From a virus, in the IMG/VR virus record IMGVR_UViG_3300042465_003545, positions 1-63,748 of that record: a stretch of DNA of 63,748 bases; one strand, written 5' to 3'. Made by a program: the position numbers and the translations under genes. This document shows, piece by piece, positions 3,437-52,565 of the stretch (positions within the stretch are counted from its first letter, which is position 1; every line of letters begins with the position of its first letter). The notes below the pieces were generated by a model. It made no database searches and was not told where the DNA came from. It was given only the letters and a program-made list of their open reading frames with translations.

Positions 3437-3447
3437 TAGTAAATTTC

Positions 3448-8275: not shown

Positions 8276-8780
8276 GCTAAAATTCAAATGAACAGTAACT
8301 ACCCGCTTACGTTATTTACGTAAATATAGCTCATCAAAAAGGGGAAAATATGGGGGATTCAGGATTCGGGGTTCCTATTCGGGGCGCGGTCGGGGGAGAT
8401 CTGCGAAGCGAAAACTTTACGTTGTCCCCCAGAATACTCAATCGTAAACACTTCATGGTATCTCCACCCATAATTGCCCCCTCGGACACCTGAACGTAAA
8501 CATAATTGTAAATCAGCGTAAATAAATGCCCTATTTTAGGTGTTCTCACCCTTAATAGTGGGGCAATGCACCGAGTTTGTGAATTTTCACATATTTTTTC
8601 ACAAAGGGTTATATGTATATATGTGGCCCACCGAAAAATGAACCATGCCCCCCGCCCCGTGTATCCTGATTCCAGAATCGGGATTCCTGAGTTAGTCTAG
8701 GCTAACCCTATTGAGGCTTGGGGGGTGAATTACACCTTGTATATGTAGAGCGATGATGCTCTCATTAAACATAATACAAT
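8276..8780. other. Divergent intergenic region between late (minus) and early (plus) units
   Basis: No gene is convincing here. The region holds an operator-like inverted repeat TTTGTGAA (8576-8583) / TTCACAAA (8598-8605), an AT-rich TTATATGTATATATG tract (8608-8622), an imperfect GTTAG...CTAAC hairpin (8692-8707) related to the downstream hairpin family, and short hairpins GGTGaattaCACC and GAGCgatgatGCTC just before the first plus-strand gene. Position and composition fit an early promoter/operator region or a replication origin, but nothing here proves either. Confidence 0.5.
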
Positions 8781-18384: not shown

Positions 18385-18734
18385 ACAAAGTATTACAACG
18401 AATAGCAATAGCAGAATCACAAGGATGGAAGCATGACATATGTAATGTCGGCAAGCACGGCACGAAGATGAGTGGGTGGTGGATGCCCTGTGGTTCGTTC
18501 ACTACGGACATAAACATGATGCCCGATTATGGCAATGACCTCAACGCGTGCGATAACTTAATCAACCACATGCAGACCCTCGGGTTTGACTGTGTGCTAA
18601 TAGCAGAGGGACCCGCACGCTGCTGCACCTTCATTAGCCAAGAGAGGGATGTTGAGTTCAAAGTAATCAGTGGCCGCTTCACACATTCAATCTGTGAGTC
18701 GTTCCTGAAAACCCTTAACCTATGGATACCATGA
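18381..18734 (+). CDS. Phage ABA-sandwich domain protein
   Basis: A 117-residue protein with the hallmarks of the Phage_ABA_S (BC1872-like) family: QRIAIAESQGW at the start, PDYGNDLNACDNL in the middle and ICESFLKTLNLWIP at the end. These small alpha/beta/alpha proteins are common in phages and unassigned. A paralogue with better conserved motifs is at 42320-42664, and the DNA encoding the C-termini (TTCCTGAAAACCCTT) is identical in both. Start and stop overlap the neighbours as ATGA. Confidence 0.7.
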   Translation: MNKVLQRIAIAESQGWKHDICNVGKHGTKMSGWWMPCGSFTTDINMMPDYGNDLNACDNLINHMQTLGFDCVLIAEGPARCCTFISQERDVEFKVISGRFTHSICESFLKTLNLWIP

Positions 18735-20994: not shown

Positions 20995-21033
20995 AGCCCA
21001 CCCTAAGCGTAATGCTCGGGGTGGGCTTTTTTT
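20995..21033 (+). terminator. Terminator between convergent early and virion units
   Basis: AGCCCACCC (20995-21003) pairs with GGGTGGGCT (21019-21027), followed by seven T (21027-21033). It closes the plus-strand block and overlaps the end of the giant minus-strand gene, whose stop codon lies at 21032-21034. Confidence 0.88.
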
Positions 21034-24000: not shown

Positions 24001-27000
24001 TAGGCTGCACAAAGAAAGCTTGGTTGCCTTGACCCGTGCGAATAGCCTCGATTAGCTCAGCCGTATGACCTACTCCTTCTTGTGGTTCAGGTTCCGCTTT
24101 CGGGATACCGTTGTTCAGAAGATCTTCGTAGATACGAGAAGCCTTAGAGATGTCAGCAGCAACACCGAGCGAGAACGAATCTTTTTGACCGCCTCGTAGA
24201 ATTGCTAGGAACTCTTGGAAGTATTTCAAGAACGTGCCGATCAATGTTTTGTTGCCTTTCAACTCACGAATCACTTCTTCCGTTGACTTACCATTCACGG
24301 CTTTCTCAACCTTGGAACGGAACCACTCGGCGGCTAGCACACGATCGGTCAACTGTCCGCTGCTGCGATCTTCTTCGATCACGCGCTTGCGTTCTGCTAC
24401 GTCGGGGTAAGCCGCACGGTAGTAATCACTGGCGACTTTATCCATGATGTCAGAGCCGAGTCCCTCAGCCACAGCATCGTAGTCTTCGGGCTTCATTACT
24501 GCGTTGGCAGCAACGTGGGCAACCTCATGTTTAATCAGGGTAGAAAGAATCTGATCTTGCAACTCAGGATCAGCGTCCTCGACAGAACGGGCGGCGACTT
24601 CAGGGTTGAACATTATTGTGCTACCTTTGACACCAAATGGTTGAGTGATAAAAGTATCCTCCACAAGGTTAAATCCTGCGGGTAAGATATTACGGATTCG
24701 GGATTCGATTGAGCTAGGCGGTTTGGTGCCCTCAGCAACTACAGAAAGTGTATTTTGGGGAGGAACGAATATCTGATTCTGCATATAGCTCAAGTAAAAT
24801 AGCGCGTCATACGGCATCCCTGCAACTTCTTGGGAGACACGCTCCGCAACTACGTCGCGTTCTGCGCCATTAGTGAACCGCCCCGAGGTCCTACCCTCCT
24901 CAAATTGAGGAGTAAAGACTTTACTAATCCTATTGCCTGCCTCCTCCTGCAACGTCTGTATCCTGTCTGAGTTGAACCCTCGGATGACGAGTGCGTCATG
25001 TGAGCCCGCCCTCATGCGCTCTAGCATAGCAGTTTCTAGCACAATTCGTGCGTACCCGCGTTCCTTACTTTGCTTTTCCGCCTCTGTAAACAGTTCTAAA
25101 TAAGAAGCTGGGGTGATGACAAGTGGGTTCCGCGCATTGATGGTAACCTCATTTCTAAACGCTCCCCGCGTCCACCTACCCATGTTCGACCACATAGCTT
25201 CGTCCTGCTCTTCCATCGCATAGAACCCATTACCGAACACGTTGTCCCTTTCCTCTTGGCTCACTTCATTTTTGAGCGACATGGGCTCACGAGAAAAATG
25301 GATTGCACGAATCGAGAGACTGGGTTCCTCGCTCGGAGAGAACCTGATGTCGTTGCTCATCGGACTGAAACGCTCCTGAAGCGGGACTCCAGTGAAAGGT
25401 TCGGCTGATTTAATTTGAGCTGGTGACTTTGTAATATACTCAGCAACTTCTACGCCACCGAGTCCTTGTTCAGTCCCAGTAATCGAATCGTAACCGTCAG
25501 TGTCAGCCTCAGTGATGTAACTATTTGGAGTCCCCACACCTGCTACCGTCTCATACGACGGTTTGATTAGGGTGTTCCCAAGATTCAAAAAGAATTTACC
25601 AGCAAGCCTAGAGTTCGACTTACCAGATCTGTTCACGTTCTTAGGAGAGAAGTAGAACCACCCACCAAAGTCACCAGCCATACTACTATCGAACTCAGTA
25701 AATTGTTCTGGAGAGCTTGTATAGTGCCATGCCTCAGTGTCGAACCCAACACCCCGAGCCGCTTTATCAACAAGGGCTTGTGCCTCCGCCAACTCATCAG
25801 GAGTCAGGGAGCCTTTGCGGGACTCAAGATCAGCGTGTCGGGCGTAATCTGCGCCAGTTAGCGCGTTGCCCGCAAAACGAAGATTCATATCCCCACCAGC
25901 CATCGACTCGATGAGGTCCATTGTTTTGTTGTTCAGTCGGATACGCGCCCTGTCGTAAGCAGCGTCAGCCGCGTCAACAGCCGAGCGTTGTTTAATGGAA
26001 GCGGAACGCGACCCATAAGTCATAGCTGACATGTCTACAAAGCGGATAAGCTCATCGAGTGCCGTGTCTACTTGCTTGCTGCGATTTCCAAAGATGCTGG
26101 TTATCGCATCCCATATACGCTGCAACCAACTACGACCGCCAGCGACTTCGACATTACGTAGAATATCTTGAACGTGTTTGTCAGTGAATACCGCAGAGAG
26201 GAACTCTTCGTTGTCCGAGAACGCGTGGCGGTAGAACGCATCGTCTACTGGGAACCCTGCTTCCGTAAACTTACGCTTAGCAAGAATACGTAGGGACTCA
26301 ATACGTTTGGCGATCTTAGGATCTTTCAGCGCATTGACAGTAAGCGCGTGGGTTAACTCATGAATGAGGACGTCACCAAGACCACGACCATTGTGCCCTG
26401 CCATGTTGAGGATCACGAGGGTGTCATTGATATAAAGCCCAGCAACCTGAGGATCGATGTTGGTCATCGATACTCGAATCTGCGACACGATGTCGAGATT
26501 GCTCAGTAGTAGGTTAGCCATGATCCTAAGGTGAGGTGCTCCGTTCTTGGCGATGTGGCGCAAAGCTTTCTCGGTGCTTTCGTTTAGCCCCATCTCTTGA
26601 GCCTCCTGAGTATTGATTCGGATGCGCTCGTCGATAAGTCTGACTGCGGTATCACTCAGCGAAGCGCGTATGTTTCTACCAGTAGTGCGCGTGCTGAGCT
26701 CGACGCGCATCATGTTCAGTTTAGTTTGTAGCGCGTTCAAATTACTGCGGGCTTCCACCGCCCTTGTTTCGATCGGTGTGAGTTGGTCCTGTATAGCTTG
26801 ATAATCTGCCTGAGCTTTCTCAAGACGTGCGGTAGCTTCGACTGACGCGGCTGCCGTGTCTACTTCTTGCAAGCTAACAGTCGTCGCCATCGCAACAGAA
26901 TCACGGGTATACTGCGCCTCGCTCTCCGCCAACGCCGCTTCGTCTGCTAGCGGAACTCTACTACCTTCAGCTTCGGTGATTTGCTCCCGCAACTTAATAG

Positions 27001-30000
27001 TCTTAGCCGACACTACATCAGGCACGTCCAACTTGCGCCTTTCGATCTCAAGATCCACTGCCTTTTGGCGGAGACCTTCGAGCGATTTAGACACTGTTTG
27101 TATCTCTAACTCTTTAGCCGCTATAAGGGCATCGTTCTCATACTCAGCATCTGAAAGCTGCTTTATTTCTTTTTTGATCTCACTTTTGCGTTTGGCAGCG
27201 GGCTTTTTCCTAGGGTTGTTTAGCTCAACAATAAGTATAGCTCTGTCTTCTCTAAAGGCGTCAGTAGTATCCCTAATACCCCGAATGTCATCGCGGATAG
27301 AGCGAATGTTAGCCATTGCACTGTCCCTATTCTGGATAGCCTTATTGGACGCGACTACGGTTGGATGCTTATCAAGAGCGGTACCCGACGCAACTTCATC
27401 TAGGCTCATACTCCTTGCGAGTTGAGATTTAAGATCAGCAACTTTGTTATCAAATGATAACAGAGCTTCTGCCGCTTTCTGAGTTCGTGCCTCTGCTTTT
27501 TTAAGCGCGTTCACTTCTTTAGTCGCGGCTTTCTTAGTCGGGGCTGCTGCCTGTTTCGACTCGTTGAACGCTACCTGAGCCTCACCAAGAACTTCAGACG
27601 CCTTCTGGAGTTTCGCGCCAAGTTTGGAGCCCTTATTACTCATGTCTTGGACAGCCTTCTTTTGCTCATTAACCAACTTAGGAAGCTCAGCCTCAAGGGT
27701 CGCGATAGTTTGTCTAAGGTCGGCTACTGTAGCCTCACCGAAACGAATAGTCCTAGTATTGTAACCGCGCACAGGCTGCGGTTTCGGAGCCCCGAGTTCG
27801 GGTTCAGGTATCGGGGTTACGGTAGCCCCTTGGTAGAACTCAGTTAGGTGTTTACGGACACTGTAAAATTTAACGCCCTTTTGTAGCGATTCGACAACTC
27901 GCTTAAAGTGGTTTACTTTTCGAGTGAGCGGATGCACACCACTTATGATGTCTATCTGCCCTTCTTTATGTTTGCGCATCTCAAGTAATTCGTCCAACTC
28001 TATGTTTAACGCACTGACTCTGACTTGGGCTTCAATGACAGTCATATTTGCGTATTCCTTATTCCTATTACGGAACTCTTGGTTATCCGCATTGGCTATG
28101 AATGAATTAAGGGAGCGGATAGAGTTACTAAGGCCACCTTTCCGATCTTCTATGTGTGAAATTTGTTCTTGTAGCCCCTTGATTAAATTCCGTGCGTCTT
28201 CAGTGATAATTATTCTAACACTACCTCTTTGTTTTACAGCAAGTTTTAGAAAATTCTCTGCGGTGGTCAGCGCCTTACGATGGTCTGCTTCTCGTTGAAT
28301 CAGTCTACGAATACCCGCACCTTCTTCTGACGTAGTGATCTTGACCACGCTATCGTAGTAGTCGTTAATAAAGTCTAGCTCGTTGGGGCCTTTTTTGGTT
28401 TCCTGTTTCGTTGGCGGACGTAGCGTTCCACGAGTAATCGGAAGCGTCTCTAATCGAGCTTGCACATCTTTGACAGACGGGGCTTGATCCATACCCTCAA
28501 ACTGAGCCCGATCAGGGAGCCAACCGAGATAATACATATACGCCGCAAGTTTGCGACCTTCTGTCGACGTGCTGAGATTTTTCACAGCATCACCCATAAC
28601 CAATAGCTTAGCGCCGAAACCGTAGGAGGTGTTGCCCGATACTTTTCCAGCTATGTTTACGTTGTAGAGCAACGCACTGATGACCGAGGATACACTAGAC
28701 TCATCATTGATAACCGTAGTAGGGTCTAGTTTGTTAACTAAGTCCACGAGTAGCGCCCTGATCATTGGGTCGCCCTCTGCGGCTGCGGTAAGAGAATCTT
28801 CCGTATTAGCATAAGAGTATTCTACGTCCTCGCTACTTGCAGCCCCAAGAATGTCAGACATCCTATCCAGTTTGCTTGAGAACGTGTCAAAGTCTTCTCG
28901 GAGGTTTGCCTCTAGGGTGAAACTACCTTCTTCCGACGCGGTCAAAAGAGCGTCGAACGAGGTAGATGGCACTTGGGACGCAACATTTGATTTCTTTGTG
29001 CGGTGACGTCCGTGAACTTCTGTTAGTATTTTACCTAGGTCTGGTGGGCTTGTGAAGTCGCTATACCTAGACGTAAAGTCAGCGTCGGGGACAAACAATT
29101 TTAGTCCAAGAGATTTCTGGAGCATGAACATTCCAAAGTTGGATAGGATAGCCCGATGGCGCACCTCTCCCGTAAAATTCATACCCTTAGAAAGATGCGG
29201 GAACGTCTTCTCTATTGTGGCCGCCGCCAATTCAAGCTTCACGCCCGCTGCTATGAAATTGCTCATAGCCTGTGCATCAAGGATTCCTCGAAGCTGCGCT
29301 TCAGACATTTCAGATACCGCTTCTTTTAGCGCCTTACGATTAGTTATGAAGTTAGCTTGTTGCTCGGGATCTACAGAAAGGAATAAAGTGCCATCTTTAT
29401 CTTGTGATGCTACCGCGTAATTCCAATTACCTACTTTGCCCTTGAACTGAATAGAGCGTGCGACTAGATCTGATACTCTGCTAGCCAGCACGAACATTCT
29501 CAACGCCGCAGTATATCCTATTACAGTATCGCCAATTATGTTAATCCGTTGTTGCTCGTCCCCTACTCTAAGGGTCTTGCTAGAAGCTAAAAAATCTCTA
29601 GTATTTACCCAAAGACTATTGAACAAATCTTCCGCGTTACTAGACGTAGGATTTATTACTTTAACGTAAGCCTGTGGTATCTCTTGGAAAGCAGATGAAA
29701 TATCCAGCGCATCCATGATGTTGTTAAGATTGGACGAAGCGCTAGTAGCGTTCTGCCCTTGGTTCTGTTCGTAAGGTGGCTCTACGTGAGTTACGAAACC
29801 ATTTACTACATTGATTGATGGGTTCAGCTTACCAAGATACTTATCGTCAACAAATATACCTGCGGTGCCCCCAGCCTCAAGCTGCGCCATAGTAATCGCG
29901 GGGTCATTAGTGAACACCATCGATTGGGTTTTTTTACCGTCTCTATCGGTTATAGTCTCGGACACAATAGGAGCCTTAACGGACGCCCCCTCCGCGTTAG

Positions 30001-33000
30001 TCCACTTGATATAGTCACTCTGGTTAAACGCTTTGTATTCCTCTGTCGTTGTAGGCACGTTGAACGTCGGATATTTTTCTTGGATAAGTTCTCTGAGATA
30101 CAGGCGCTTGCCCAACATGTAGGAGTTAGGGTTAGCCTCATCAATTCCTTTTGGGTTGAATATTCTACGGAAATCAGTAACGGGATACCCGTGGGCGACA
30201 AGCAAATCAAAAGCTTGTCTCTCTTCTTCCGTTCTAAACTTGTCCCACTTGTCCCGAGTGCTGTAGTCCACAATAGACGGTACTTTTTTATTCCGCTCTT
30301 TTTCTGCCGCTCTCTCAAGGGCTTCAGCCATAGCAGTGTCTGCCTTTGCTACGTAGTCATCCAACTGACTTAACGCAAAACTAGTAGCGACATCGAAGCT
30401 GTCTACTCCCTGCTCAGCGTTTTCTAGTGCGGCCATCTCGTTACTATAGCGGGTCTCAGTGCTCTTCAGTAGCTGCTCATACTTATCCTTGTTTTGGGCA
30501 TAAGCTTTACGGCTCCGAGGATTGTCCATGTCGGAGGTCCATCGATCCATTTTTTGTTTAAGTTCAAGTAGCGGTTTGATTATACGCTGTAACGTCTTTG
30601 TAATATCCGATACTGTGCGCGTGTCTACCTCGTCTTCAGTAGCGCCCGCCTCATCTTCAGTAGTGCCCTCCGCGTTGATAGGAGTGATACTCACGTCAGC
30701 AGGGGCTAGCTCAATATCCGCAAACCACTGGGAGCCCATGATTCTTACGGGGGCCATGTCCGCAATAGCAGCACCTTCTTTGGCTGCCATCTCGCGCATG
30801 TTCTCTAAGATATACTGGCGTTTACTACCGTCCTTTATGATGTTCTTTGAAAAAAGCTTACTGAATTGTGGGCTCAGTAAGTGTTCTTGGATCGCGGGGT
30901 CACCCGATACCCAAGCAGCTTCACTAGGAGTAAGCGCCTCGGTCCCAGTTCCTAGCGTAACGCCAGCAAACTTGAGACTCTGCGGCGACGGAGCTTCTTT
31001 TTCGATCTCGGGTTCCTCGTTCACTATACTTATGAAGGGAGTGAAATCTATTTGTGACACATTAACGGTAGCAGATATACCATCGAAACCTATAGTGACC
31101 TTCGTCCTCGCTACTTTCTCAACGACACCCTCGCGGACAGTTCCTTTGTATTGGAACTTGACAGTAGTGACCGCCCCGCTGCGTAGGGCTTTCATTACAC
31201 TACTGCGCTGCTCTTCGGGTATCTCAACAAAGTCGCTAGTGCCCTCGTCTTCTTCATCGACGTAGATCATGTTGTAGACTCTGGTTGCTTCTTCGAGTTC
31301 TTCGGCTAAGTCTACACTCTCTGGGTTCGTCTCCACAGCGAGTTCAAGGTTGCTGATGACTTGCTCTAACTCCTCTTGACCTAGGTTGGCGTAATCAAAA
31401 TCAATCTCTGGGTCGAGTATCGTAGATTGGCTAGGCACTAATACTCCCTTATCGACATTAAGTGGCTCGCCGCCTTTGACAATAAGATGGGCGATTGCTC
31501 TGTTCTTTTGTAATCTGTCCGTATTAACTTTGGCATTAAACGCCTTAGCGGCTTCCGCTTGCTCTGCGGGAGTCCTGCCATACGTGTCAACTTCCAGATA
31601 GTCATCCGCGTTCTCAGAATACTCTGCGGCGTCTCCTTTGACACTACCTCCCATAGCCCTAAACGCATCGGACACTTTATCACGAAACTCTTCCGTGGGC
31701 ATATTACCAGCAGGGTCAACTTTCTTAGCGATATAATCCCCAACCACACTAGCGGTCGAGGGCTCTATTCCCGCACTAGTAAGTATCTTCTCCGCAATTT
31801 TGCTACGTCCTTTATTGGTTACTGTTTCTACTTCAGCTAGCTCGCCATCAGGTTCTGCGACAACATCGATCTCAGCTTCAGCGGCGGGCGCGTCTTCCGT
31901 AGCAGCCGCTTTCTTCCCCCTCTTTTTAGTCGTGGTAGTTTTATTTACTTCGGCTGCGGCAGTAGCATCCTGTTTCCGTTGCTCTTTAATCTGCGCCTTT
32001 TGTTTATCTTTCCGTTCTTTATTCAGCTTGGAACTACCTTCGATAGGCGGTGTGTTCTTCTCCGCCTCAACCTGTTCTGTGGTCCGTGGCTCCAGTGATA
32101 TTCCGTAGTATCTAGCCGTCTCAACAAGAGCATCTTCTTGTGTGATGTGGATATCCATAGTGCTGTCGCCTCCTATGCTCTTGGCACGGAAAACAGTTAG
32201 CCCTACAGCCTTGCCTTTTTTGTTGTAGCTTACTTTTGTAGCTGGTCGGTAACTCGCATGAGGAAGCGCGTAGTTGATCGTCCCTCTCTTCACGACAGGC
32301 GAGCCCGCTTTGATCTGACCCTCTTCATTCTTAGTAACCTTAATGCGTGACTTGCGCTCGATTCTACCCGACGCTTTATCCGCAGGGTCTCCTAAAACTA
32401 CAGAAGTTTCTCCCGTCTTCAAAGGTTTGAAGAACTCAAGAATCATGTTTCCTGCACCGTCTCGCATTACCTTACCGCCATTGCCATCAAAGTAAGCAGT
32501 GCTAAACTCGTAGTCAGCAAGAAGCCCCGTAGTCGGATCGGATACAGGGTCCCAGTCTACGGTCTCTAGCTCAGCGATTGTTTCAGGAGTAACCGCTGTA
32601 TCGACTGGCGTCTCCTTAGGGAGATTAGACTCTGCGATGACCGCGGCGAGTGCTTCTGCCGTTTTCGGGGCTCCAGCATCTGTAAGCTTGCCAGAGATCT
32701 CCCCGAACAACTGGAGACGCGCAGACATAATCTTGCGGTCTTCGTTCAGCTTTCCTTTCTGTGTGAGTGTAGGGGCTAACTGTGGGGCTACGTTGAACCC
32801 TACGCCCATGAGACCACCGAGACCAGCGGCATACCAGATATTCTTACCTATCTCTGCGATGGGCGTGTCGCGGTTCAGCGCGGCGTCTTCCACCATCATT
32901 TGAAACGCTTGATCGACGCCCTCCTCGAAAGCTTCTCCGCCCCCCTCTCTAGCCCCAGAAACAAGAAACTGTTTAACGGCGCCAGAAGTAGCTTTGCGAA

Positions 33001-35203
33001 TCTCCTCTTTAATCGTCTTGTCAGCTATCTTAGAAGACATAGCTCGTGTCGTAGAATATAACTTGCGAACTTGGTTAAACGTGAGTTCATCTAGGTTCCG
33101 CGTAGCAAGACTCTCTGGACCACCCGCCCCGAGAGTTGTCATACCTGCAACAAATAAACAGGAAAAAGACCCCGCAGCAATCGCGGAACCAAAAGCTTTT
33201 TGGTGCTTTTCCTCGTGGCTCATCGACTCGGGTAGCTGACTATAAATTGAAGCGTAGGTTCCTCCTGCTGCGCGTAGGAACGTAGTCGGTCCTGTTGCCG
33301 CGAGATTATTCAAGTAGCCGCCTTTACTAGACGCAAAAGTAGAGATATTATCCGCTATTGATCGGAGTGCGCTGCCTGTAAATTCCGACTTTGTTGCAGC
33401 AAGCGCAACTGACTCAGCAGCTTCCTTGCTCATACCCACCATCATGTTTTTTGCGGTGCGTGTAGCAAGGCTAGAGACCTCGCGCTTGACGACACTTGCA
33501 GCGGCCCCCCGCGCTGCAGCGCCGAGACCTGCTTTTGCTAGCGCGTAGGTTCCACCAGACACTGTGGATAAGGCGACGTCTATTACTATCTGGGGTAGCA
33601 TGTTAGCGATGTCTTGACCAACCCCAAATTTGTCTCCGAACATCTCAGCATAACGAGAGTAGCCCTCTGCTCCTTTACCCATTTCAGTAATAGTTGTTGC
33701 CGCGTCTTTGTTACCAAACAAAGCTGGAACAGCAACTGCTAGCGCCCCGATGCTCGTAAGGGTAGAATAAGCCATAGAACCTAGTCTATTTCTGAAGTTG
33801 TCGTAGTTGTCGTCATTGCTGACCCATTCGCTAATAAAGTCTGTGTCGGACTGACCTTTCTCTTTTGCTTTAGCATACGCCGTAACTGCATCCATATCAC
33901 GAGATGTGACAAGTCTGATCATCTCGGGAGCTTGAGCTTCGAGAGTCTTTGTCGCCGCGACGCGAGCCACGTTCTCCTGCGCAGCGTTGAGACCCGTAGC
34001 CGCGATCGCTTTATCCAACTCTTGTTTACGAGCTATAATTGCGGGGGACAAAATAGGAACTCCCGTGGACATCAATCGGATGCCTGTTTCTGGTTTGTCG
34101 GGGTTGTAGTTGGGTTGACTTCTAAGAGTTACGAAGTCATTACTAAAACGCTCAATTTCTTCCGCAGAGTATTTGCTGCCTATAGGCGAGCTAGCGATAA
34201 TTGCTGCAATGTCTGTGCGTTGTTTGAGAGCATTAGCGTTCTCGGCTTCGCCTCGTCTTTCAATACCTTCTTTGACAGCACCCAGTGACCCTAGAGGGGC
34301 AACTAGGCTTCCTTTTTTAGCTTCGCCCACAGTATAAACTACTGAGTCTTTTGCAGCGGAAACAAGATTACCAGTAGCCTCGGCTGCCGTATCCCAGAGC
34401 TTCCCAAAAAAACCTTTGTCCGCTTCCTCTTCGTCTTCCTTGCGCTTCTCGTTAATAGCGTCAACGGCTCCTGAGAAGTTTTCATCGCTGCCAGCAAGTA
34501 AGTCAACGTCACCAAAGAACTCGTTACTGCGTTCGACGTCTGCGTTGCTGCTAGTTCCAAACGCACTCGTCTGTAGCAAGTAGTTAACACCGCGTAAATC
34601 GTCTGAGCCAATAGCCCCCCGCGATACTAAGTCGTCGACAGATTTTCTAACGGTGTCTTCACTCCAGTTAGGTCCAGCCTTCAAAGACCTGTTACCGTCT
34701 TTGTCTACAATGGCAACAACAGGAACTTCGCCACGGTTAAGGGCACCAAGTTTTGACTTAGTGGTGATGTAAGGGTCTTTGATAATATCAGCAACACGAT
34801 CTTTGTAGCTGTCCGCTTGTTCGTTAAGTCCTAATCTGCGGGATGAAACATAGCGTCGAATAACATCTGCTTGGTCTTGATCAAGTAGGTCTTCCTCTTT
34901 GGCGTAGCCCGTAATTTGATTGTATACAAACTGTGCATCGGCATCAAACGTATCATCGGGTGCCCCCAGTGTTTGCTCGACTGCCTGTTTTTCTTCTTCA
35001 GTGGAATCCTCTCTAAGGATGTTTCTACTGTATAAAGATTTGCCCACCCCTTGTCGGATGCCCTCTTCTACTTCGTCGTTGTATGTTCCGTTCTTGAAGT
35101 GTTCTGCTCGGACGTATCCAGCAAAAGACTTTAATTGTTTAACGGGATCGGTTTCGGTCGAAGATTTCGACCACGTATCAAATGATTGGTTTAGTTCCGA
35201 CAT
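21032..35203 (-). CDS. Giant polyvalent virion (ejection) protein, 4,723 residues
   Basis: The gene fills 22 percent of the genome. Visible parts, N to C: charged helical start; hydrophobic stretches near residues 480-495, 680-700 and 790-810 that could be membrane-active; an Ala/Lys/Glu linker near 1040-1120; a very long coiled-coil zone about 2150-2870; a zincin with HELTH (2948-2952) and a downstream NEEFLSAVF glutamate; an ADP-ribosyltransferase-like domain starting AWHYTSS (W3159) with GGWFYFSPKN; a second domain with a similar HFSREP...GNGFYAMEEQDE pattern (about 3300-3420); a second zincin motif HEVAH (3559-3563); and a helical, partly hydrophobic C-terminus (about 4100-4700). This matches phage polyvalent proteins injected with the DNA to disarm host defences. 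Position beside internal virion proteins supports that. No RNA polymerase motif seen. Confidence 0.85.
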   Translation of the reverse strand: MSELNQSFDTWSKSSTETDPVKQLKSFAGYVRAEHFKNGTYNDEVEEGIRQGVGKSLYSRNILREDSTEEEKQAVEQTLGAPDDTFDADAQFVYNQITGYAKEEDLLDQDQADVIRRYVSSRRLGLNEQADSYKDRVADIIKDPYITTKSKLGALNRGEVPVVAIVDKDGNRSLKAGPNWSEDTVRKSVDDLVSRGAIGSDDLRGVNYLLQTSAFGTSSNADVERSNEFFGDVDLLAGSDENFSGAVDAINEKRKEDEEEADKGFFGKLWDTAAEATGNLVSAAKDSVVYTVGEAKKGSLVAPLGSLGAVKEGIERRGEAENANALKQRTDIAAIIASSPIGSKYSAEEIERFSNDFVTLRSQPNYNPDKPETGIRLMSTGVPILSPAIIARKQELDKAIAATGLNAAQENVARVAATKTLEAQAPEMIRLVTSRDMDAVTAYAKAKEKGQSDTDFISEWVSNDDNYDNFRNRLGSMAYSTLTSIGALAVAVPALFGNKDAATTITEMGKGAEGYSRYAEMFGDKFGVGQDIANMLPQIVIDVALSTVSGGTYALAKAGLGAAARGAAASVVKREVSSLATRTAKNMMVGMSKEAAESVALAATKSEFTGSALRSIADNISTFASSKGGYLNNLAATGPTTFLRAAGGTYASIYSQLPESMSHEEKHQKAFGSAIAAGSFSCLFVAGMTTLGAGGPESLATRNLDELTFNQVRKLYSTTRAMSSKIADKTIKEEIRKATSGAVKQFLVSGAREGGGEAFEEGVDQAFQMMVEDAALNRDTPIAEIGKNIWYAAGLGGLMGVGFNVAPQLAPTLTQKGKLNEDRKIMSARLQLFGEISGKLTDAGAPKTAEALAAVIAESNLPKETPVDTAVTPETIAELETVDWDPVSDPTTGLLADYEFSTAYFDGNGGKVMRDGAGNMILEFFKPLKTGETSVVLGDPADKASGRIERKSRIKVTKNEEGQIKAGSPVVKRGTINYALPHASYRPATKVSYNKKGKAVGLTVFRAKSIGGDSTMDIHITQEDALVETARYYGISLEPRTTEQVEAEKNTPPIEGSSKLNKERKDKQKAQIKEQRKQDATAAAEVNKTTTTKKRGKKAAATEDAPAAEAEIDVVAEPDGELAEVETVTNKGRSKIAEKILTSAGIEPSTASVVGDYIAKKVDPAGNMPTEEFRDKVSDAFRAMGGSVKGDAAEYSENADDYLEVDTYGRTPAEQAEAAKAFNAKVNTDRLQKNRAIAHLIVKGGEPLNVDKGVLVPSQSTILDPEIDFDYANLGQEELEQVISNLELAVETNPESVDLAEELEEATRVYNMIYVDEEDEGTSDFVEIPEEQRSSVMKALRSGAVTTVKFQYKGTVREGVVEKVARTKVTIGFDGISATVNVSQIDFTPFISIVNEEPEIEKEAPSPQSLKFAGVTLGTGTEALTPSEAAWVSGDPAIQEHLLSPQFSKLFSKNIIKDGSKRQYILENMREMAAKEGAAIADMAPVRIMGSQWFADIELAPADVSITPINAEGTTEDEAGATEDEVDTRTVSDITKTLQRIIKPLLELKQKMDRWTSDMDNPRSRKAYAQNKDKYEQLLKSTETRYSNEMAALENAEQGVDSFDVATSFALSQLDDYVAKADTAMAEALERAAEKERNKKVPSIVDYSTRDKWDKFRTEEERQAFDLLVAHGYPVTDFRRIFNPKGIDEANPNSYMLGKRLYLRELIQEKYPTFNVPTTTEEYKAFNQSDYIKWTNAEGASVKAPIVSETITDRDGKKTQSMVFTNDPAITMAQLEAGGTAGIFVDDKYLGKLNPSINVVNGFVTHVEPPYEQNQGQNATSASSNLNNIMDALDISSAFQEIPQAYVKVINPTSSNAEDLFNSLWVNTRDFLASSKTLRVGDEQQRINIIGDTVIGYTAALRMFVLASRVSDLVARSIQFKGKVGNWNYAVASQDKDGTLFLSVDPEQQANFITNRKALKEAVSEMSEAQLRGILDAQAMSNFIAAGVKLELAAATIEKTFPHLSKGMNFTGEVRHRAILSNFGMFMLQKSLGLKLFVPDADFTSRYSDFTSPPDLGKILTEVHGRHRTKKSNVASQVPSTSFDALLTASEEGSFTLEANLREDFDTFSSKLDRMSDILGAASSEDVEYSYANTEDSLTAAAEGDPMIRALLVDLVNKLDPTTVINDESSVSSVISALLYNVNIAGKVSGNTSYGFGAKLLVMGDAVKNLSTSTEGRKLAAYMYYLGWLPDRAQFEGMDQAPSVKDVQARLETLPITRGTLRPPTKQETKKGPNELDFINDYYDSVVKITTSEEGAGIRRLIQREADHRKALTTAENFLKLAVKQRGSVRIIITEDARNLIKGLQEQISHIEDRKGGLSNSIRSLNSFIANADNQEFRNRNKEYANMTVIEAQVRVSALNIELDELLEMRKHKEGQIDIISGVHPLTRKVNHFKRVVESLQKGVKFYSVRKHLTEFYQGATVTPIPEPELGAPKPQPVRGYNTRTIRFGEATVADLRQTIATLEAELPKLVNEQKKAVQDMSNKGSKLGAKLQKASEVLGEAQVAFNESKQAAAPTKKAATKEVNALKKAEARTQKAAEALLSFDNKVADLKSQLARSMSLDEVASGTALDKHPTVVASNKAIQNRDSAMANIRSIRDDIRGIRDTTDAFREDRAILIVELNNPRKKPAAKRKSEIKKEIKQLSDAEYENDALIAAKELEIQTVSKSLEGLRQKAVDLEIERRKLDVPDVVSAKTIKLREQITEAEGSRVPLADEAALAESEAQYTRDSVAMATTVSLQEVDTAAASVEATARLEKAQADYQAIQDQLTPIETRAVEARSNLNALQTKLNMMRVELSTRTTGRNIRASLSDTAVRLIDERIRINTQEAQEMGLNESTEKALRHIAKNGAPHLRIMANLLLSNLDIVSQIRVSMTNIDPQVAGLYINDTLVILNMAGHNGRGLGDVLIHELTHALTVNALKDPKIAKRIESLRILAKRKFTEAGFPVDDAFYRHAFSDNEEFLSAVFTDKHVQDILRNVEVAGGRSWLQRIWDAITSIFGNRSKQVDTALDELIRFVDMSAMTYGSRSASIKQRSAVDAADAAYDRARIRLNNKTMDLIESMAGGDMNLRFAGNALTGADYARHADLESRKGSLTPDELAEAQALVDKAARGVGFDTEAWHYTSSPEQFTEFDSSMAGDFGGWFYFSPKNVNRSGKSNSRLAGKFFLNLGNTLIKPSYETVAGVGTPNSYITEADTDGYDSITGTEQGLGGVEVAEYITKSPAQIKSAEPFTGVPLQERFSPMSNDIRFSPSEEPSLSIRAIHFSREPMSLKNEVSQEERDNVFGNGFYAMEEQDEAMWSNMGRWTRGAFRNEVTINARNPLVITPASYLELFTEAEKQSKERGYARIVLETAMLERMRAGSHDALVIRGFNSDRIQTLQEEAGNRISKVFTPQFEEGRTSGRFTNGAERDVVAERVSQEVAGMPYDALFYLSYMQNQIFVPPQNTLSVVAEGTKPPSSIESRIRNILPAGFNLVEDTFITQPFGVKGSTIMFNPEVAARSVEDADPELQDQILSTLIKHEVAHVAANAVMKPEDYDAVAEGLGSDIMDKVASDYYRAAYPDVAERKRVIEEDRSSGQLTDRVLAAEWFRSKVEKAVNGKSTEEVIRELKGNKTLIGTFLKYFQEFLAILRGGQKDSFSLGVAADISKASRIYEDLLNNGIPKAEPEPQEGVGHTAELIEAIRTGQGNQAFFVQPIAFADKKNTTVETVWGRISKLIRNLPADINKLVRDREGDIRAAQFLMERFAPHYKRFLEPALKAGADINDVGMILGTTAPTMDDAAVARVDVVVEAFRKTIASGTPVDEVDKLVSAEKTRALAAEKKIQDTAFLNNQKAATARMDAIAPEFSKFLQLFRKEIDKRQDAIGYSHSAGIYLTRTYKFFNTEGWASAARDADGATYRLNGEEINFGDLRAKAAQSYEADVIAEYAEAGTTLTPSLLTRGVQDKLDNLLKWLSENATVDKGESLSQDLRRFMPKNNVDSAVRELLGETKNPMENALRTLHYVGVLAANKKALTAIKDSLLLSGLGSDTEKAGYVQIFGTGVTKSREPLGGLYVRADIAKELEAEFGSNARKLMKHTEGVLNKVTGGLAKMSGAAMTTKTLMTIGFYTRNILSNQVVLIAAQGIIPLASSGLDLYKSYRLSGIANFESRGKDATEAELAEIQELIRLGVLRDSSSRGQFDDLMRGYADRAGVTFETAMDDIIKVASKGDLNALQNMASRVAGGAKGTIEFLAAVNSWVDDACKAQVYFFEKNELAKAYPSNTAEWHSEQAATKVKLTMPSHSEQLDIVRSFNRNPLSLFVFPFARWKTEVLRTYVNTQKLAYREITSGNSRMFVRGLRRLAGSATVTTMGMTALNSVLAAAFRLFTGQDDEEDKDKDKNAVVVDDPAVLSALRVAYPEYQKGHSLRVTTNGRELSVIDMTAIHPYATLIDSATIIREGLATGKGVDTKKLASYFASQFVGSQIASGAVLDIVNNQNDFGQKIYEETDDSLVQVRKMITYVGAQAYKPGIVAKIQASTRKGEANPDYIWAGEFLGARPKVYTLDQVARAGFYSLKSESDSIKRQRSALSSGRAISEEDVRDIMVTTQEADDRTQARLHQFMNAMRSVGTSERVIVQRAVATGMSKKRVAEAIEGRNTTWRGNADWEKGMIDNVTQTGEADARERSAMIDRAYDSMPRETSVRNIK

Positions 35204-46736: not shown

Positions 46737-47759
46737 ATGACAACCACTCTACTTACTATTACCGATCCCGAAATTCCTACTGAAATTACGCAAGACGTGA
46801 TTGGTAGCTTTACTGAACTAGCCTCACGACTTTCATCCGTTGGACAGACGGCTACTGACATTTTACGAAAGAACCCAGATAGCGATGACGTCGCTACTGA
46901 GGCTCGCGATTGCCGTCTACAGATGGTTCGTGTACGCACGGATACTGAACGAACTCGTAAAGAGCTACTTAAACCCATTGATCTTCGCCGCAAGGCAATC
47001 AACGGCGCTGCTGCTATCTTTGAGGACAAGGCGTCGCAGATCGAAGCACAACTACGCCCGATCGAGGACGCCGCCGAGACTCGCAAAGAAGAGCGTCGTC
47101 GCCAGCTACACGATGATCGACTTACTGAGATTTCTGTCTTCCTACAAGGAGATTTGCTGACCCCATACTCTCTTATGGATCTTGGTTCCAAATCAAATAA
47201 AGATTTCTTGGACATCGTTAATTCCGCTAAGTCAACTGCGGAGAGTCTCGCGGCTAAGAAAGCTGAGGAGGAACTAGCCCGCATGGAAGAAGAGCGCGTA
47301 GCCGCAGAACTCGAAGCTCAACGCCAAGTTGAATTAGCTGAAGCCCAGCGCGTAGCCGCAGAACTCGAAGCTCAACGCCAAGTTGAATTAGCTGAAGCCC
47401 AGCGCGTATCCGCAGAACTTGCAGAACTTCGTGCGCAGGTCGAAATAGCCAAACGAAAAGAGAGCGCCGAGCGTGAAGCCCGCGAGATTGCAGCAGCAAA
47501 ACAACGAGAAGCTGAAGCAGCAGAGCACAGACGTAAAGTCGAAGCAGATATAGCAGAAGCCCTTGCTGTGAAGCAACTAGCTCTCGCCCCCGACCGTGAG
47601 AAACTTACTCTGTTCTTGTATTCTGTATCTGTGGAGATTGACAAACTTGTGCCTAGTAGTTTAACTACACCAACGGGTAAGACTACTATGAGCATAGTGA
47701 GTTCTATATTGCAAAAGTCTGTGCGCGAAGCGGAGTCTGTAGTTAACTCAATGAAATAA
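46737..47759 (+). CDS. Coiled-coil recombination-associated protein (DUF1351-like)
   Basis: A 340-residue protein. Residues 1-130 are a helical domain in which ARDCRLQMVRVRTDTERTRK and KPIDLRRKAINGAAAIFEDK resemble the DUF1351-type proteins found beside phage recombination genes. Residues 170-270 are a long Glu/Ala/Arg coiled coil that contains an 18-residue unit duplicated exactly at DNA level (47293-47400). The last 65 residues form a small globular end (LTLFLYSVSVEIDKLVPSSL). Gene order places it between the recombination and polymerase genes. Confidence 0.65.
   Translation: MTTTLLTITDPEIPTEITQDVIGSFTELASRLSSVGQTATDILRKNPDSDDVATEARDCRLQMVRVRTDTERTRKELLKPIDLRRKAINGAAAIFEDKASQIEAQLRPIEDAAETRKEERRRQLHDDRLTEISVFLQGDLLTPYSLMDLGSKSNKDFLDIVNSAKSTAESLAAKKAEEELARMEEERVAAELEAQRQVELAEAQRVAAELEAQRQVELAEAQRVSAELAELRAQVEIAKRKESAEREAREIAAAKQREAEAAEHRRKVEADIAEALAVKQLALAPDREKLTLFLYSVSVEIDKLVPSSLTTPTGKTTMSIVSSILQKSVREAESVVNSMK
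47293..47408 (+). repeat. In-frame 54-bp tandem repeat in coiled-coil gene
   Basis: The 54-bp unit beginning AGCGCGTAGCCGCAGAACTC is present twice without mismatch, followed by a diverged partial third copy starting at 47401. It encodes RVAAELEAQRQVELAEAQ, which extends the coiled coil by 18 residues per unit. Copy number may vary between strains. Confidence 0.9.
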
Positions 47760-47763
47760 TATT

Positions 47764-50388
47764 ATGACGCCACAACGCACTATGAATACCTATGCCCTCG
47801 ACTTTGAGACCTACTACGATAAAGAATGTTCGATTAAAATTCTAGGAACACAGGGTTACTTTAACCACCCCAATTTTGACGCCTACATGGTCACTGTGTG
47901 GGGTTCTGATGGGACACGCTACGTGGGGGACCCTCGAAACTTTGACTGGTCTATTCTGAACGGTAACAGGGTTCTGTCCCACAACGCTTCCTTTGATGAG
48001 GGTGTCTACTTTCACGGGGTCTCTAAAGGGTGGTGGCCGCCAGCGCTTCTTGCTGAGTGGTTATGCACCTCTGACATGGTTGCGTTCCTCGGACTGCCAC
48101 GAAGTCTGAAGGGCGCAGTTAATACTGTGTTTGGCATTGAAATCAGTAAGGACACTCGGGACAACATGAAGGGTAAAGCTTGGGAATCTATGACTCCTGA
48201 CTTTCAAAAAGAAGTATCCGATTACGCGTTGCGCGATGCGGAATACTGCTTTAACTTATGGGAGAAACTTGGCGACAGATGGCCCCTAAGAGAACGCAAG
48301 ATTAGCGCGATCAATCGGCGTATCGCGCAGCGCGGAATCCCTATTGATTGGGACGCGCTCCAGAAAAATCTAGGTATAATCAATACCGCTCTGTTTAACG
48401 CTGAGTCATTGATTCCTTGGATTGAGGACTATACCCCACTCTCTCGAAAAGCGTTCAATGCACAGTGCCGTAAGCAAAATATTGAGCCACCGAAGTCTCT
48501 TGCACAAGCAAGTCCTGAGGCGGCTAAGTGGTTCGAGGTGAATGGCGCTGAGTGTGTATGGGCAAAAGCTGTGTCCGACTACCGCAGAATCAATAGCTTC
48601 AAAAAGAAACTAGAGTCCTTCCAAGGGGGCACACTAGGTGACGGGCGTTACTATGGTGGGTTCCTATATTTTGGAGCTTCGACAGGACGCTTCTCTGGGT
48701 CAGGCGGCAACCTGAATCTACAAAACCTACCTCGTGGGGAGATGTTCGGAGTTGATTTTCGCAAGATGATTAAAACTCCAGAGGGTCGTGCTCTTGTTGT
48801 TGTCGACCTATCTCAGATCGAGGTGCGCACCTTGTGCCACCTAGCGGGGGACACGAAAGCTCTACAACTGATCAAGGAGTCAGAAGACATTTATCATGCC
48901 TTCGGAGTCCTGCTCGGGTTACACGATCCTGCAAACGGACAGCTTAAAAAGTATGACCCAGTTCTCAGACACAAAGTTAAATCGATCGTTCTTGGGTGTT
49001 TTGGCGCGGAGACCATAGTCCTAACCAACAATGGGTGGAAAAGAATTGTAGATGTCAGCTTGACAGATATGGTATGGGACGGTATTGAATGGTCTCACCA
49101 CGAAGGAGTTATATGCCAAGGAATAAAAACAACGATAAACCAACACGGAGTAGCTGCAACAGCGGACCACGAAATCCTAACGGAACATGGGTGGAAGGAG
49201 TGGTCCGAGGTCCTTACAGAGAGTTCCCTTTTCCAGTCGGCTATAAAGTCGGGGAACTTACCATCGTTTGTTGGAATAGAAAAGACAGAGCCTATCACCC
49301 TATCGTTAAATGCTCGTGCGGGTGGCAAGGATTTGTTGATAGATACAACCTCAAATTTGGGAGGACTACCCGATGCAGAGAGTGCGCTGCTAGTAAATCA
49401 GGGGCTACCCTTTCTGAAAATTATGGGTGCGCCTCTATTTTACCAGACCCGCGAGAACGAAAAAGACTACTCGGAAGAATGTCAGCCACAGTCTCACGGT
49501 GTCATACTCCAGATAACAGAAACTACGGGCACTACGGAGCAAGAGGGATACACGTCCACCAACCTTGGAGAGACAACCGCGCAGAGTATCTGGCATATCT
49601 CCTCACGCTCGTCGGCTGGGACAATCCGAAACTTGAACTCGACCGTATCGACAACAATAGAGGATACGAGCCCGATAATCTCAGATTCACTACTAGGAGC
49701 CAAAATAGACTTAATTCCAGACGCAGTATTGCTAAACGACTTCGCGAGAGTAGAACTGACTTATGACTTAAAAAATGTGGGGCAGCGAAACAGATTCACT
49801 GTCCTCACAAGTGAAGGACCCATCCTTGTTCATAATTGTGGCTACGGAATGGGTGTCGATCGCTTTGCAGAGTTCAGTGGGCTAGATGAGAACGAGGCAG
49901 CAACTGCCGTAAACCTATACCGTAAGCGTATGAAGTCCGTAGTAAACCTATGGGGGCACTATGACGAGGGAATCAATTTCTCTATCGCGGCGGGGGAAGA
50001 GTTCAGTGTAGAGATCGCTTCAAGCCGTGTCCTTGGTTACGGGCGCATCAAGAAGATGAAGGACTCTAAGACAGGTAAGTTTACCAACGTGGGTAAGATT
50101 ATGCGCCAAGGTCGCCTGATGGACTTTAGACTTTGGGGTGGCGTTATAACCGAGAACGCAAGTCAAGGACTCGCACGCGACATCTTTTCCGACATGATGG
50201 TTCGGGTAGAAGAAGCAGGATACGACTGTATCATGCACGTCCACGACGAACTTATCGTTGAAGTGGACGAAGATAAAGCAGAGCTAGCATTAAAAGAAAT
50301 TCTAGCTATTATGTCCACTCCTCCTGAGTGGATACCAGACATCCCACTCTCTGCCGAGGGTCAAATCATGACAGAATACACCAAATGA
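47764..50388 (+). CDS. polA: Family A DNA polymerase interrupted by an intein
   Basis: An 874-residue precursor; the mature enzyme would be 594 residues after removal of residues 412-691. The N-terminal 3'-5' exonuclease has DFETYYD (D13, E15). Polymerase motif A is VVDLSQIEVRTL (D348). Motif B begins RHKVKSIVLG (R402, K406), is broken by the intein, and resumes CGYGMG (Y694). Motif C is MHVHDELIVEVD (H827, D828, E829). The insertion is thus in the O-helix at the nucleotide-binding site, so splicing is required for activity. ATG 47764 is used here; ATG 47782 is an alternative closer to the exonuclease domain. The stop overlaps the primase-helicase start as ATGA. This is the replicative polymerase. 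Confidence 0.93.
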   Translation: MTPQRTMNTYALDFETYYDKECSIKILGTQGYFNHPNFDAYMVTVWGSDGTRYVGDPRNFDWSILNGNRVLSHNASFDEGVYFHGVSKGWWPPALLAEWLCTSDMVAFLGLPRSLKGAVNTVFGIEISKDTRDNMKGKAWESMTPDFQKEVSDYALRDAEYCFNLWEKLGDRWPLRERKISAINRRIAQRGIPIDWDALQKNLGIINTALFNAESLIPWIEDYTPLSRKAFNAQCRKQNIEPPKSLAQASPEAAKWFEVNGAECVWAKAVSDYRRINSFKKKLESFQGGTLGDGRYYGGFLYFGASTGRFSGSGGNLNLQNLPRGEMFGVDFRKMIKTPEGRALVVVDLSQIEVRTLCHLAGDTKALQLIKESEDIYHAFGVLLGLHDPANGQLKKYDPVLRHKVKSIVLGCFGAETIVLTNNGWKRIVDVSLTDMVWDGIEWSHHEGVICQGIKTTINQHGVAATADHEILTEHGWKEWSEVLTESSLFQSAIKSGNLPSFVGIEKTEPITLSLNARAGGKDLLIDTTSNLGGLPDAESALLVNQGLPFLKIMGAPLFYQTRENEKDYSEECQPQSHGVILQITETTGTTEQEGYTSTNLGETTAQSIWHISSRSSAGTIRNLNSTVSTTIEDTSPIISDSLLGAKIDLIPDAVLLNDFARVELTYDLKNVGQRNRFTVLTSEGPILVHNCGYGMGVDRFAEFSGLDENEAATAVNLYRKRMKSVVNLWGHYDEGINFSIAAGEEFSVEIASSRVLGYGRIKKMKDSKTGKFTNVGKIMRQGRLMDFRLWGGVITENASQGLARDIFSDMMVRVEEAGYDCIMHVHDELIVEVDEDKAELALKEILAIMSTPPEWIPDIPLSAEGQIMTEYTK
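49103..49115 (+). promoter_or_regulatory. Ribosome binding site of the nested HNH gene
   Basis: AAGGAG (49103-49108), four bases, ATG (49113-49115). In the intein frame the same bases encode HHEGVIC. A clear Shine-Dalgarno is exceptional in this genome, where most starts have only AT-rich upstream bases. It supports separate translation of the nested gene. Confidence 0.75.
49113..49766 (+). CDS. HNH homing endonuclease encoded out of frame inside the intein
   Basis: A 217-residue protein from ATG 49113, with AAGGAG at 49103-49108 four bases upstream (an earlier in-frame ATG at 49089 is less likely). It has a CxC...CxxC zinc-binding region (C67, C69, C88, C91) and a complete phage HNH domain: SRCHTPDNRNYGHYGARGI (R129-I146), LELDRIDNNRGYEPDNLRF (D177, D180, N181, N189) and a basic helical end. 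The polymerase/intein frame begins at 47764 and this frame at 49113 (offset 1,349, not a multiple of three), so both proteins are read from the same 654 bases in different phases. It overlaps intein block B at its N-terminus and stops 12 bases before the block F core. Probably spreads the intein by cutting intein-less polymerase alleles. Confidence 0.92.
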   Translation: MPRNKNNDKPTRSSCNSGPRNPNGTWVEGVVRGPYREFPFPVGYKVGELTIVCWNRKDRAYHPIVKCSCGWQGFVDRYNLKFGRTTRCRECAASKSGATLSENYGCASILPDPRERKRLLGRMSATVSRCHTPDNRNYGHYGARGIHVHQPWRDNRAEYLAYLLTLVGWDNPKLELDRIDNNRGYEPDNLRFTTRSQNRLNSRRSIAKRLRESRTDL

Positions 50389-52565
50389 AATACCGATATA
50401 TCCGAAACCATAGAGCAACCGCCACATCATCTTTCGACGATCCTACAACTGTACCCCATAATGTTCCGACCTTTGCCAACAAGGGTCAGTTCCGTGAGTG
50501 GTGCGCTGACCCTAACACTGACCACTGTTTCTACACTCTTAATGAGGGTGACAACAAATTCGAGAGGGTCGGGGAAGAGAATCCTGTCAATCGGATTTAC
50601 GGGTTCACTGCGGACTACGACGCGCCCCTCGACTGGACGAACGTGGAAAACATTATCAAGATCCGCTGTGAGGCAGACAAAATTCCTACGTGGTACTCAA
50701 AAACGAACTCAGGATACATACGTTTAGTGTGGGAGTTCAGCGAACCCATTCCTGTAGCACCAGAGATGGCAGACGCGTTCTTACGTAGGCTTGCCATAGA
50801 GTTGAGGGCATCGATGTTGTTCGGGGGCTACGATAAGTCCTCGGAGAAAGTTGCGCAGACATTTGAATTAGGCACTAATTGGAAAAAGATTGGTCACGTT
50901 CTTGACGCCCTTGTTGCTAAGACTGTTTTACTGAAGGCGGCAAACGACGCCCCCATCAAGACAGTAGACACAAACATACCGATCGAGGACGTAGCAGTAG
51001 AAGTTGATCGGAAGTTTCCTAATCGATGGAAGAAGGACTTTGTAGTAGGCTCACGAGGTCCTCTATTCTGGATCGATGACGGTATCGAGCGAGACGGGTG
51101 CCAAGTTCGCGAGGACGGAGTTATATGTTACTCTGACAGGGCGGAGAGGGGGTTCATGTCGTGGCGTGATCTCCTTGGAAAGAAGTTCATGGATTCTTAC
51201 GAGACGGCTAAAGTAGGCGGGCTCGTTGACCAATTTTGGTTCAACGGGAAAAGCTACTACAAGCTTCTCAATAACAACCCTGTGGCAATACCAAAAGAGC
51301 AGCTACTACTGGAGCTACGAAAGATGGGCTTCTCCCACAAGACGAAGAAAGGACAGTCACTTTCTGAGGTAGAGAGCGCGCTTCTTACGATCTCCAATGA
51401 AAGTCGTGTCGACGAGGTTGCCCCTGTAGTCTTCTCTAAGGGTCGTGTAATTTCTTTCAATGGGCGCAGAATACTGAACTCTAGCAAGGCGAGCCCCGTT
51501 CGCCCTGCTTCGACAGGAGACCCCGAGATGTGGCCGTGGATTCATGCGTTCATTACTCCGTTCTTTGTAGACGACGATGAAGGTCGGAGCACACTCCCAT
51601 ACTTCTTCGCGTGGTTCAAGCGCCTCTACTCTGCGGTGCTGGAGCATCGGCTTGATCAAGGTCAGCTTCTCATTCTACTCGGACCAACAGGTAGGGGAAA
51701 GACGCTACTCACTAACCAGATTCTAGGTCGCTCGGTCGGGGGTTTCTCTGATGCTAGTGATTATCTTTCTGGTAACACGTCGTTCAACCGTGACCTGTGC
51801 GGAGCAGCGATGTGGGTGGTCGATGACCAAGTAGCCGCGTCTACCTACGCGGATCAACGTAAGTTTGTGGAACTGACAAAAAGGTGCGTAGCTAACCCAC
51901 GACTAGAGTACCATGCCAAGTATGCAGATGCCGTTACGCTGCCGTGGTCGGGTCGTGTTGCTATGTCCCTCAACCTTGACGCAAACTCACTCGCGGCACT
52001 GCCATCTCTTGACTCGTCGAATAGAGACAAGGTATTGGCGCTGCGGCTGAACTCGACTCATAAAGTAACTTTCCTGTCCAACGTAGAAACAGAAGCAACC
52101 ATCGCTGAAGAACTGCCATTCTTTCTAAGATGGTTACTAGACTACGAACCACCAGAGCATGTGCTAGCAACTAATAGATTTGGTGTCAAAACGTATATCG
52201 ATCCATTCATCGAAGCAGCGGCTTATGATAATAGTAGTCGTTCTGAGATTGCTGAGTTGGTGGAGTTCTTTGCTCGCAAGTATCGTGAGGGTGCTGCTGC
52301 GTGTGGGACGAAAGTAACCAGTGTGTGGCGAGGAACGCTAACTGATTTCCAAGTTACGCTTCACGAGCTCAACGGGGGAAGGAATGTAGGGTCGTCTAAC
52401 AACTTAGGATTCGTTCGTCGGGGTATGACCGTGCTCGAAGAAGTAGGACTCATCAATACGAAGATTCGCCCAGTGCGTAGTCGAGGTGAAGGTGGCGGTA
52501 AGTTGTGGGAGATCAACGTCAGTGACGACTACGATATTGACAAGGGTATGTCCGACGAAACCTGA
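50385..52565 (+). CDS. Primase-helicase
   Basis: A 726-residue protein starting at ATG 50385, overlapping the polymerase stop. The N-terminal half (about 1-330) resembles archaeo-eukaryotic-type primase proteins (FTADYDAPLDW, YSKTNSGYIRLVWEFSEPIP). The C-terminal half is a superfamily 3-like helicase with Walker A GPTGRGKT (433-440), followed by WVVDDQ as Walker B and a RVAMSLNLD sensor segment. It ends with a winged-helix-like tail. It would prime and unwind DNA for the adjacent polymerase. The gene ends convergently with 52529-52996, overlapping it by 37 bases. Confidence 0.85.
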   Translation: MKYRYIRNHRATATSSFDDPTTVPHNVPTFANKGQFREWCADPNTDHCFYTLNEGDNKFERVGEENPVNRIYGFTADYDAPLDWTNVENIIKIRCEADKIPTWYSKTNSGYIRLVWEFSEPIPVAPEMADAFLRRLAIELRASMLFGGYDKSSEKVAQTFELGTNWKKIGHVLDALVAKTVLLKAANDAPIKTVDTNIPIEDVAVEVDRKFPNRWKKDFVVGSRGPLFWIDDGIERDGCQVREDGVICYSDRAERGFMSWRDLLGKKFMDSYETAKVGGLVDQFWFNGKSYYKLLNNNPVAIPKEQLLLELRKMGFSHKTKKGQSLSEVESALLTISNESRVDEVAPVVFSKGRVISFNGRRILNSSKASPVRPASTGDPEMWPWIHAFITPFFVDDDEGRSTLPYFFAWFKRLYSAVLEHRLDQGQLLILLGPTGRGKTLLTNQILGRSVGGFSDASDYLSGNTSFNRDLCGAAMWVVDDQVAASTYADQRKFVELTKRCVANPRLEYHAKYADAVTLPWSGRVAMSLNLDANSLAALPSLDSSNRDKVLALRLNSTHKVTFLSNVETEATIAEELPFFLRWLLDYEPPEHVLATNRFGVKTYIDPFIEAAAYDNSSRSEIAELVEFFARKYREGAAACGTKVTSVWRGTLTDFQVTLHELNGGRNVGSSNNLGFVRRGMTVLEEVGLINTKIRPVRSRGEGGGKLWEINVSDDYDIDKGMSDET

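Follow-up and report, generated by a model that had tools for sequence, protein, structure and literature searches.

The window analyzed here, a 63,748-base record from an uncultivated virus, carries a family-A DNA polymerase gene of 874 amino acids at positions 47764-50388 on the + strand, which is stop-free throughout (DNA_pol_A, E=2.8e-25). The match to family-A DNA polymerase is found on both sides of an insert, and this insert is an intein of 280 amino acids (48997-49836) placed at polymerase motif B, the host ORF consisting of the exteins plus the intein. The initial annotation had called a complete intein in the polymerase frame at this place, and its coordinates and residues proved correct: C412, T466 and H469 of block B, H690-N691, and the +1 residue C692. 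The sequence features of class 1 Hint inteins, Cys1, a TxxH in block B, a C-terminal HN, and Cys, Ser, or Thr at +1, are all found. Three parts can be distinguished along the + strand, an N-terminal splicing half with blocks A and B (48997-49263, intein residues 1-89, with C1 and a TADH block B), a linker that is stop-free in the splicing frame (49264-49722), and a C-terminal splicing half with block F and the HN of block G (49723-49836), followed by the +1 Cys at 49837-49839; the HN and the following Cys are kept in relatives. A 35-nt direct repeat (71%) at 49006-49040 and 49162-49196 codes for blocks A and B, and is probably the internal duplication of the Hint fold.

Inside the intein, on the same strand but in register +2 relative to the polymerase, lies a second ORF predicted to encode an HNH homing endonuclease (49113-49766 on the + strand, 217 amino acids plus the stop codon at 49764-49766). 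The initial annotation had described a full HNH nuclease here and proposed searching both frames against protein databases. This search returned the PHROG polymerase (E=1.5e-68) for one frame and phrog_374 (E=2.3e-29) for the other, in agreement with an HNH nuclease. The ORF is open to its stop at 49766. The protein is homologous to the phage HNH homing endonucleases of phrog_374, with which it shares the HNH and Cys motifs, and its invariant residues are C67, C69, C88, C91, D177, R178, N189, and N198. No Pfam model matched the HNH; the hits obtained were weak and scattered, to coiled coils among others. The ORF is open from an ATG at 49089, directly preceded by an in-frame TGA, and this ATG is a candidate upstream start (49089-49112, + strand) lying at the conserved start position of relatives (+92 of the intein). 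The AAGGAG said to precede the ATG at 49113 is present at 49103-49108 (+ strand), a Shine-Dalgarno-like motif within intein codons whose spacing of 4 nt from that ATG is short.

When the HNH codons were redrawn with the protein fixed and the codon usage of the window, 5e-5 of draws left the polymerase frame without a stop, and when the codons of the intein were redrawn with its protein fixed, the longest alternative frame had a median of 62 codons and reached 225 codons in 0 of 20,000. Among 343 control HNH stretches outside detected inteins, many of which entered under both profiles, the alternative frame was open in 10, including a truncated nested copy (L011). The recoding draws and these free-standing controls rule out that the HNH frame is open by chance. 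Free-standing phrog_374 endonucleases are homologous to the nested protein and have the same HNH and zinc-binding Cys motifs, but their genes lie outside inteins with an alternative frame that is rarely open, whereas the gene described here is nested in one.

Other ORFs in the window include one directly upstream of the polymerase (46737-47759) with tandem AELEAQRQVELAEAQRV-like repeats, a probable coiled coil, an ORF of 4723 amino acids on the - strand (21032-35203) without a Pfam match, and an ORF at 18722-19882 with a domain pair, DUF2201 metallopeptidase-like plus VWA-like.

Nested HNH genes in phage inteins

Using each frame separately as a tblastn query led to the same loci in unrelated phages: EBPR siphovirus 2, Pseudomonas phage MR14, Sodalis phage SO-1, jerseyviruses, Vibrio phage 97.13, Shewanella phage SFCi1, Caulobacter phages, and APSE-1. 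In each of these phages an open polymerase frame coincides with an HNH encoded in a different frame. Viral and genome contigs in public data were then scanned and surveyed with profiles, the survey being seeded with HNH and intein similarity so that the counts describe nested-HNH inteins and not their share among all inteins. It recovered 118 complete inteins, all unique, that contain a nested HNH (97 of family HA at +2, 18 of HB at +1, and 3 HA-like at +1). The related inteins with the same nested gene that the initial annotation had suggested looking for number 118, plus a further HNH clade, C, in about 17 loci, nearly all of them prophage polymerases and always at +1. The window belongs to clade A (+2), as do Jerseyvirus and Sodalis phage SO-1, and APSE-1 belongs to clade B (+1), the register tracking the HNH clade.

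The splicing features are well conserved across this set, with Cys as the first intein residue in 118/118, HN as the last two in 116/118, and Cys or Ser at +1 in all. The polymerase frame is stop-free in 118/118, while stops in the third frame inside nested inteins average 18 (group A) and 12 (group B). Every intact member has its HNH at +2 or +1 and none has it in the splicing frame. One polymerase, L108, contains both a group A and a group B intein (1973-2830 and 3305-4222) with nested HNHs in different registers, the second interrupted by a stop. The layout extends beyond polymerases, occurring also in SNF2/DEAD-type phage helicases (L045, L199, and L324, the last at 8297-9223).

Parts of this arrangement have been annotated before without the connection being made, as P45/P46 in APSE-1 and, for the splicing domains only, as an intein in phage Ent2. 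In Salmonella phage LPSE1 (L499, 450-1193, - strand), the record lists the nested HNH ORF as a hypothetical protein and shows no polymerase gene across it, an annotation artefact caused by the gene overlap.

Start signals, selection, and predicted folds of the two frames

Signals that could start translation of the HNH gene are enriched within the intein codons. An HNH-frame ATG occurs at +75 to +130 of the intein in 90/92 group A members, compared to 50.6 expected under synonymous recoding, and an ATG accompanied by 5 nt or more of Shine-Dalgarno match in 32/92, compared to 4.5 expected, although both excesses are less significant than they appear because the sequences are related. The usual form is that the codons for D-G-E-E-W-V are read as GGAGGA...ATG, and a recognizable ribosome site is absent from some members. 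An alternative source of the nuclease would be programmed frameshifting from the polymerase frame, producing an HNH fused to the N-terminal splicing half, and in 22 members of group A the HNH frame does continue upstream into the extein without a stop. However, an in-frame stop lies within the intein upstream of the HNH in 92/114 intact cases (73/95 in group A and 16/16 in group B), after which a shift could still occur; the register is not the same in all clades (+2 or +1); ATGs in the alternative frame, and such ATGs combined with a Shine-Dalgarno match, are commoner than synonymous recoding predicts; and several clade C members have AAGGAGGT-like sites upstream of the ATG. We consider frameshifting improbable for these reasons, and separate initiation within the intein the preferred reading.

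The pattern of substitutions reveals which frame is under selection in each part of the element. In 27 independent group A pairs, the exteins and the non-overlapped intein change mainly at polymerase codon position 3 (53-61%), whereas in the linkers 56% of substitutions fall at polymerase position 2, which is the third position of the HNH frame. For group B, three pairs place 48% of linker substitutions at polymerase position 1, again the HNH third position. In the HNH frame, linker dN/dS is 0.14 for group A and 0.10 for group B, as compared to 1.3 (A) and 2.6 (B) in the intein frame, while in the N-terminal splicing half it is 0.34 in the intein frame and 0.71 in the overlapping HNH frame; these figures are rough, since the coupling of the frames is ignored, but the contrast between frames is large. 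Identity between the window and 12 relatives is 47-56% for the HNH core and 50-58% for the splicing halves, and 23-30% for the linker in the intein frame. In the linker, amino-acid selection therefore acts on the HNH frame only, and the intein frame is merely kept stop-free.

These values also bear on whether the HNH frame is a decaying relic, with only the intein mattering now. Decay of the element is visible in two cases: L374 has a mini-intein (5040-5462) at the QALARD site in which a C-terminal piece of an HNH survives in the +1 frame, and L180 has as its second intein a mini-intein of 157 residues, also with an HNH remnant. The HNH frame is also broken in 4/118 (the second intein of L108, L111, L259, and L299). 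Consistently broken HNH frames in relatives, the pattern that the initial annotation named as counting against its proposal, were not what the survey found, however, with the ORF in one piece in 114/118, and low HNH-frame dN/dS over many pairs in both groups speaks against a relic, making this a very unlikely description of the family.

An AlphaFold model of the intein built from 35 aligned inteins has pLDDT of ~97 at residues 1-80 and 251-280, and ~42 in the linker, which is without secondary structure and predicted to be disordered. Foldseek matches of this model in the PDB were intein or Hint-family structures, and the intein profile matches RecA intein structures (E=2e-7). Both intein ends are thus predicted to adopt the Hint fold. 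The HNH model has a mean pLDDT of 86 and is poor only in the first ~40 residues; its best viral match was a 247-aa protein of phage LPSE1, and no solved structure gave a convincing match to the HNH by sequence or fold. On the DNA the folded parts interleave, with the N half of the intein extending to ~49263, the HNH core spanning ~49233-49763, and the C half of the intein beginning at ~49723. Folded regions overlap by only ~30-40 nt at each end, and the rest of the block B overlap is covered by the disordered N-terminal region of the HNH.

Substitution positions, the dN/dS contrast, and this folding pattern together indicate that the HNH gene is the intein's linker, passively read in the splicing frame, and that true dual coding exists only at the edges of the HNH gene. 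The initial annotation proposed dual coding over 78% of the intein. The frames do overlap to that extent, counting the HNH ORF from the ATG at 49113, but the claim was overstated, with the linker selected in the HNH frame only. Strong dual selection across the whole overlap is not supported by the linker codon-position and dN/dS results.

HNH genes encoded in introns are common, and the element could in principle be a group I intron with an HNH gene. The record of Sodalis phage SO-1 (L003, gp38/gp39) reads this way, naming the nested HNH as a 'type I self-splicing intron' product, an entry that looks like a misannotation because the polymerase frame is open across the nested HNH and intein motifs are present. 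An open polymerase frame across the element in all 118 members, intact intein blocks, and the predicted Hint fold argue against an intron, and an Rfam search of 47764-50400 returned no match at E<=1. Absence of an Rfam match combined with the open host frame leaves a group I intron with a negligible probability, and we reject this reading. Least credible of all is that a sequencing frameshift, a possibility raised by the initial annotation, split an ordinary in-frame endonuclease intein: the records of L044 (phage SS3e) and L111 do appear frame-shifted, but identical registers in >100 independent assemblies, isolate genomes included, and the lack of any intact member with an in-frame HNH refute it. 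In L044 and L111 it is the intein frame itself that is broken, probably by frameshifts.

Probable mobility and origin of the element

Among 80 polymerase relatives of the window, most of them 55-64% identical, the intein site is empty in 77-78. The automatic count was 78 straight alignments over the junction, which includes the window itself through a local-alignment artefact as well as L374, which has an intein at another site. One relative, L350, has the same kind of element at the same site as the window. Inteins and their hosts also have discordant histories. The splicing halves of the L296 and L297 inteins are 2% diverged while their exteins are 35% diverged, and the corresponding values for the L021 and L286 intein and exteins are 6% and 24%. 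Tree correlations are highest between splicing domain and HNH (r=0.80), compared to 0.59 for splicing domain and extein and 0.70 for HNH and extein. Sporadic presence and this conflict between intein and extein histories are what is expected of homing. Group A elements are inserted in the motif B region, at several neighboring positions, and group B elements mostly in the Q-A-x-A-R-D region.

Clades A, B, and C each form one group in a tree built from 81 HNH proteins. Clade B falls within the free-standing HNHs, and A and C join each other despite their different registers. Tree and registers together suggest that nesting arose at least twice and probably three times.

These sequences are best read as encoding a splicing intein in the polymerase frame and, out of that frame, an HNH homing endonuclease that is translated separately. 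We are confident, though short of certain, that it represents a composite mobile element, a Hint mini-intein in which an out-of-frame phage HNH homing-endonuclease gene has replaced the linker. Splicing, internal initiation, cutting by the HNH, and homing are what we infer for its life cycle. Ribosomes translating the polymerase frame would pass through the HNH gene and produce a disordered linker, after which the two Hint halves would splice the linker-bearing intein out of the polymerase. Other ribosomes would initiate inside the intein, at a start signal within the splicing-domain codons, to yield the free HNH enzyme. This enzyme could cut intein-less polymerase genes at motif B, and repair of the cut would copy the whole element in.

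Precedents and significance

The nearest published precedents are the ShiLan domain and the Pacc40 gp60 insertion; the ShiLan domain is an out-of-frame HNH in phage methylases in which no intein or intron was found (Arsenault, Gosselin and Gogarten 2025, PMC11855218). The authors found no splicing domain and argued that the insertion stays in the methylase, and they proposed leaderless initiation, having found no ribosome site (PMC11855218). Both cases have an out-of-frame HNH inside a phage gene, an open host frame, a sporadic distribution, and apparent homing. They differ in that the HNH described here sits within a complete Hint intein and that intein codons show an excess of signals for its start.

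Canonical endonuclease inteins, with LAGLIDADG or in-frame HNH domains, share the Hint domain, DNA-metabolism hosts, and a homing nuclease sequence at the linker position. Their nuclease domain is in the splicing frame of a single polypeptide, as in the dCTP deaminase intein of cyanophage CL131 with HintN and HNH_3 in one ORF (PMC6293099), whereas the nuclease described here has its own ORF in a different frame. Group I introns with HNH ORFs similarly carry a homing gene within a splicing element of a polymerase gene, but in the present case there is no intron RNA match and the host frame is read straight through. Split inteins with an endonuclease gene between the halves, termed 'fractured genes', were reportedly described by Dassa et al. 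in 2009. These too tie a separately translated endonuclease (predicted here) to an intein, although in our case the intein is uninterrupted within an uninterrupted host gene, with the nuclease overlapping both.

The only precedents found in the open literature were the ShiLan work and an announcement repeating it. That search found no described intein with an overprinted homing gene, and a 2025 preprint by Gosselin et al. on actinobacteriophage inteins of 'non-canonical architecture', which lay outside it, may describe part of this system. The initial annotation was aware of no established family with this layout. This holds insofar as no paper was found, but the layout itself recurs in three HNH clades and in both polymerase and helicase genes. 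We lean toward regarding these elements as a previously unrecognized class of intein that was put together on at least two and probably three occasions. In this class a separately initiated homing endonuclease gene would be overprinted on the linker, two proteins would be made from interleaved frames, and splicing-domain codons would double as the ribosome-binding site of the nuclease.

Many mini-inteins with long, seemingly meaningless linkers may conceal a homing gene. Salmonella jerseyviruses, which have been sequenced widely, are an example, with a locus that has been annotated variously as polymerase, intron, endonuclease, and hypothetical protein. Because the selected frame switches sharply along one element, these inteins also offer large natural sets for the study of gene overlap. 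The layout would separate expression of the nuclease from splicing of the polymerase, and it may represent a route to intein mobility that does not involve fitting a nuclease domain into the fold, as an insert need only keep the host frame open.
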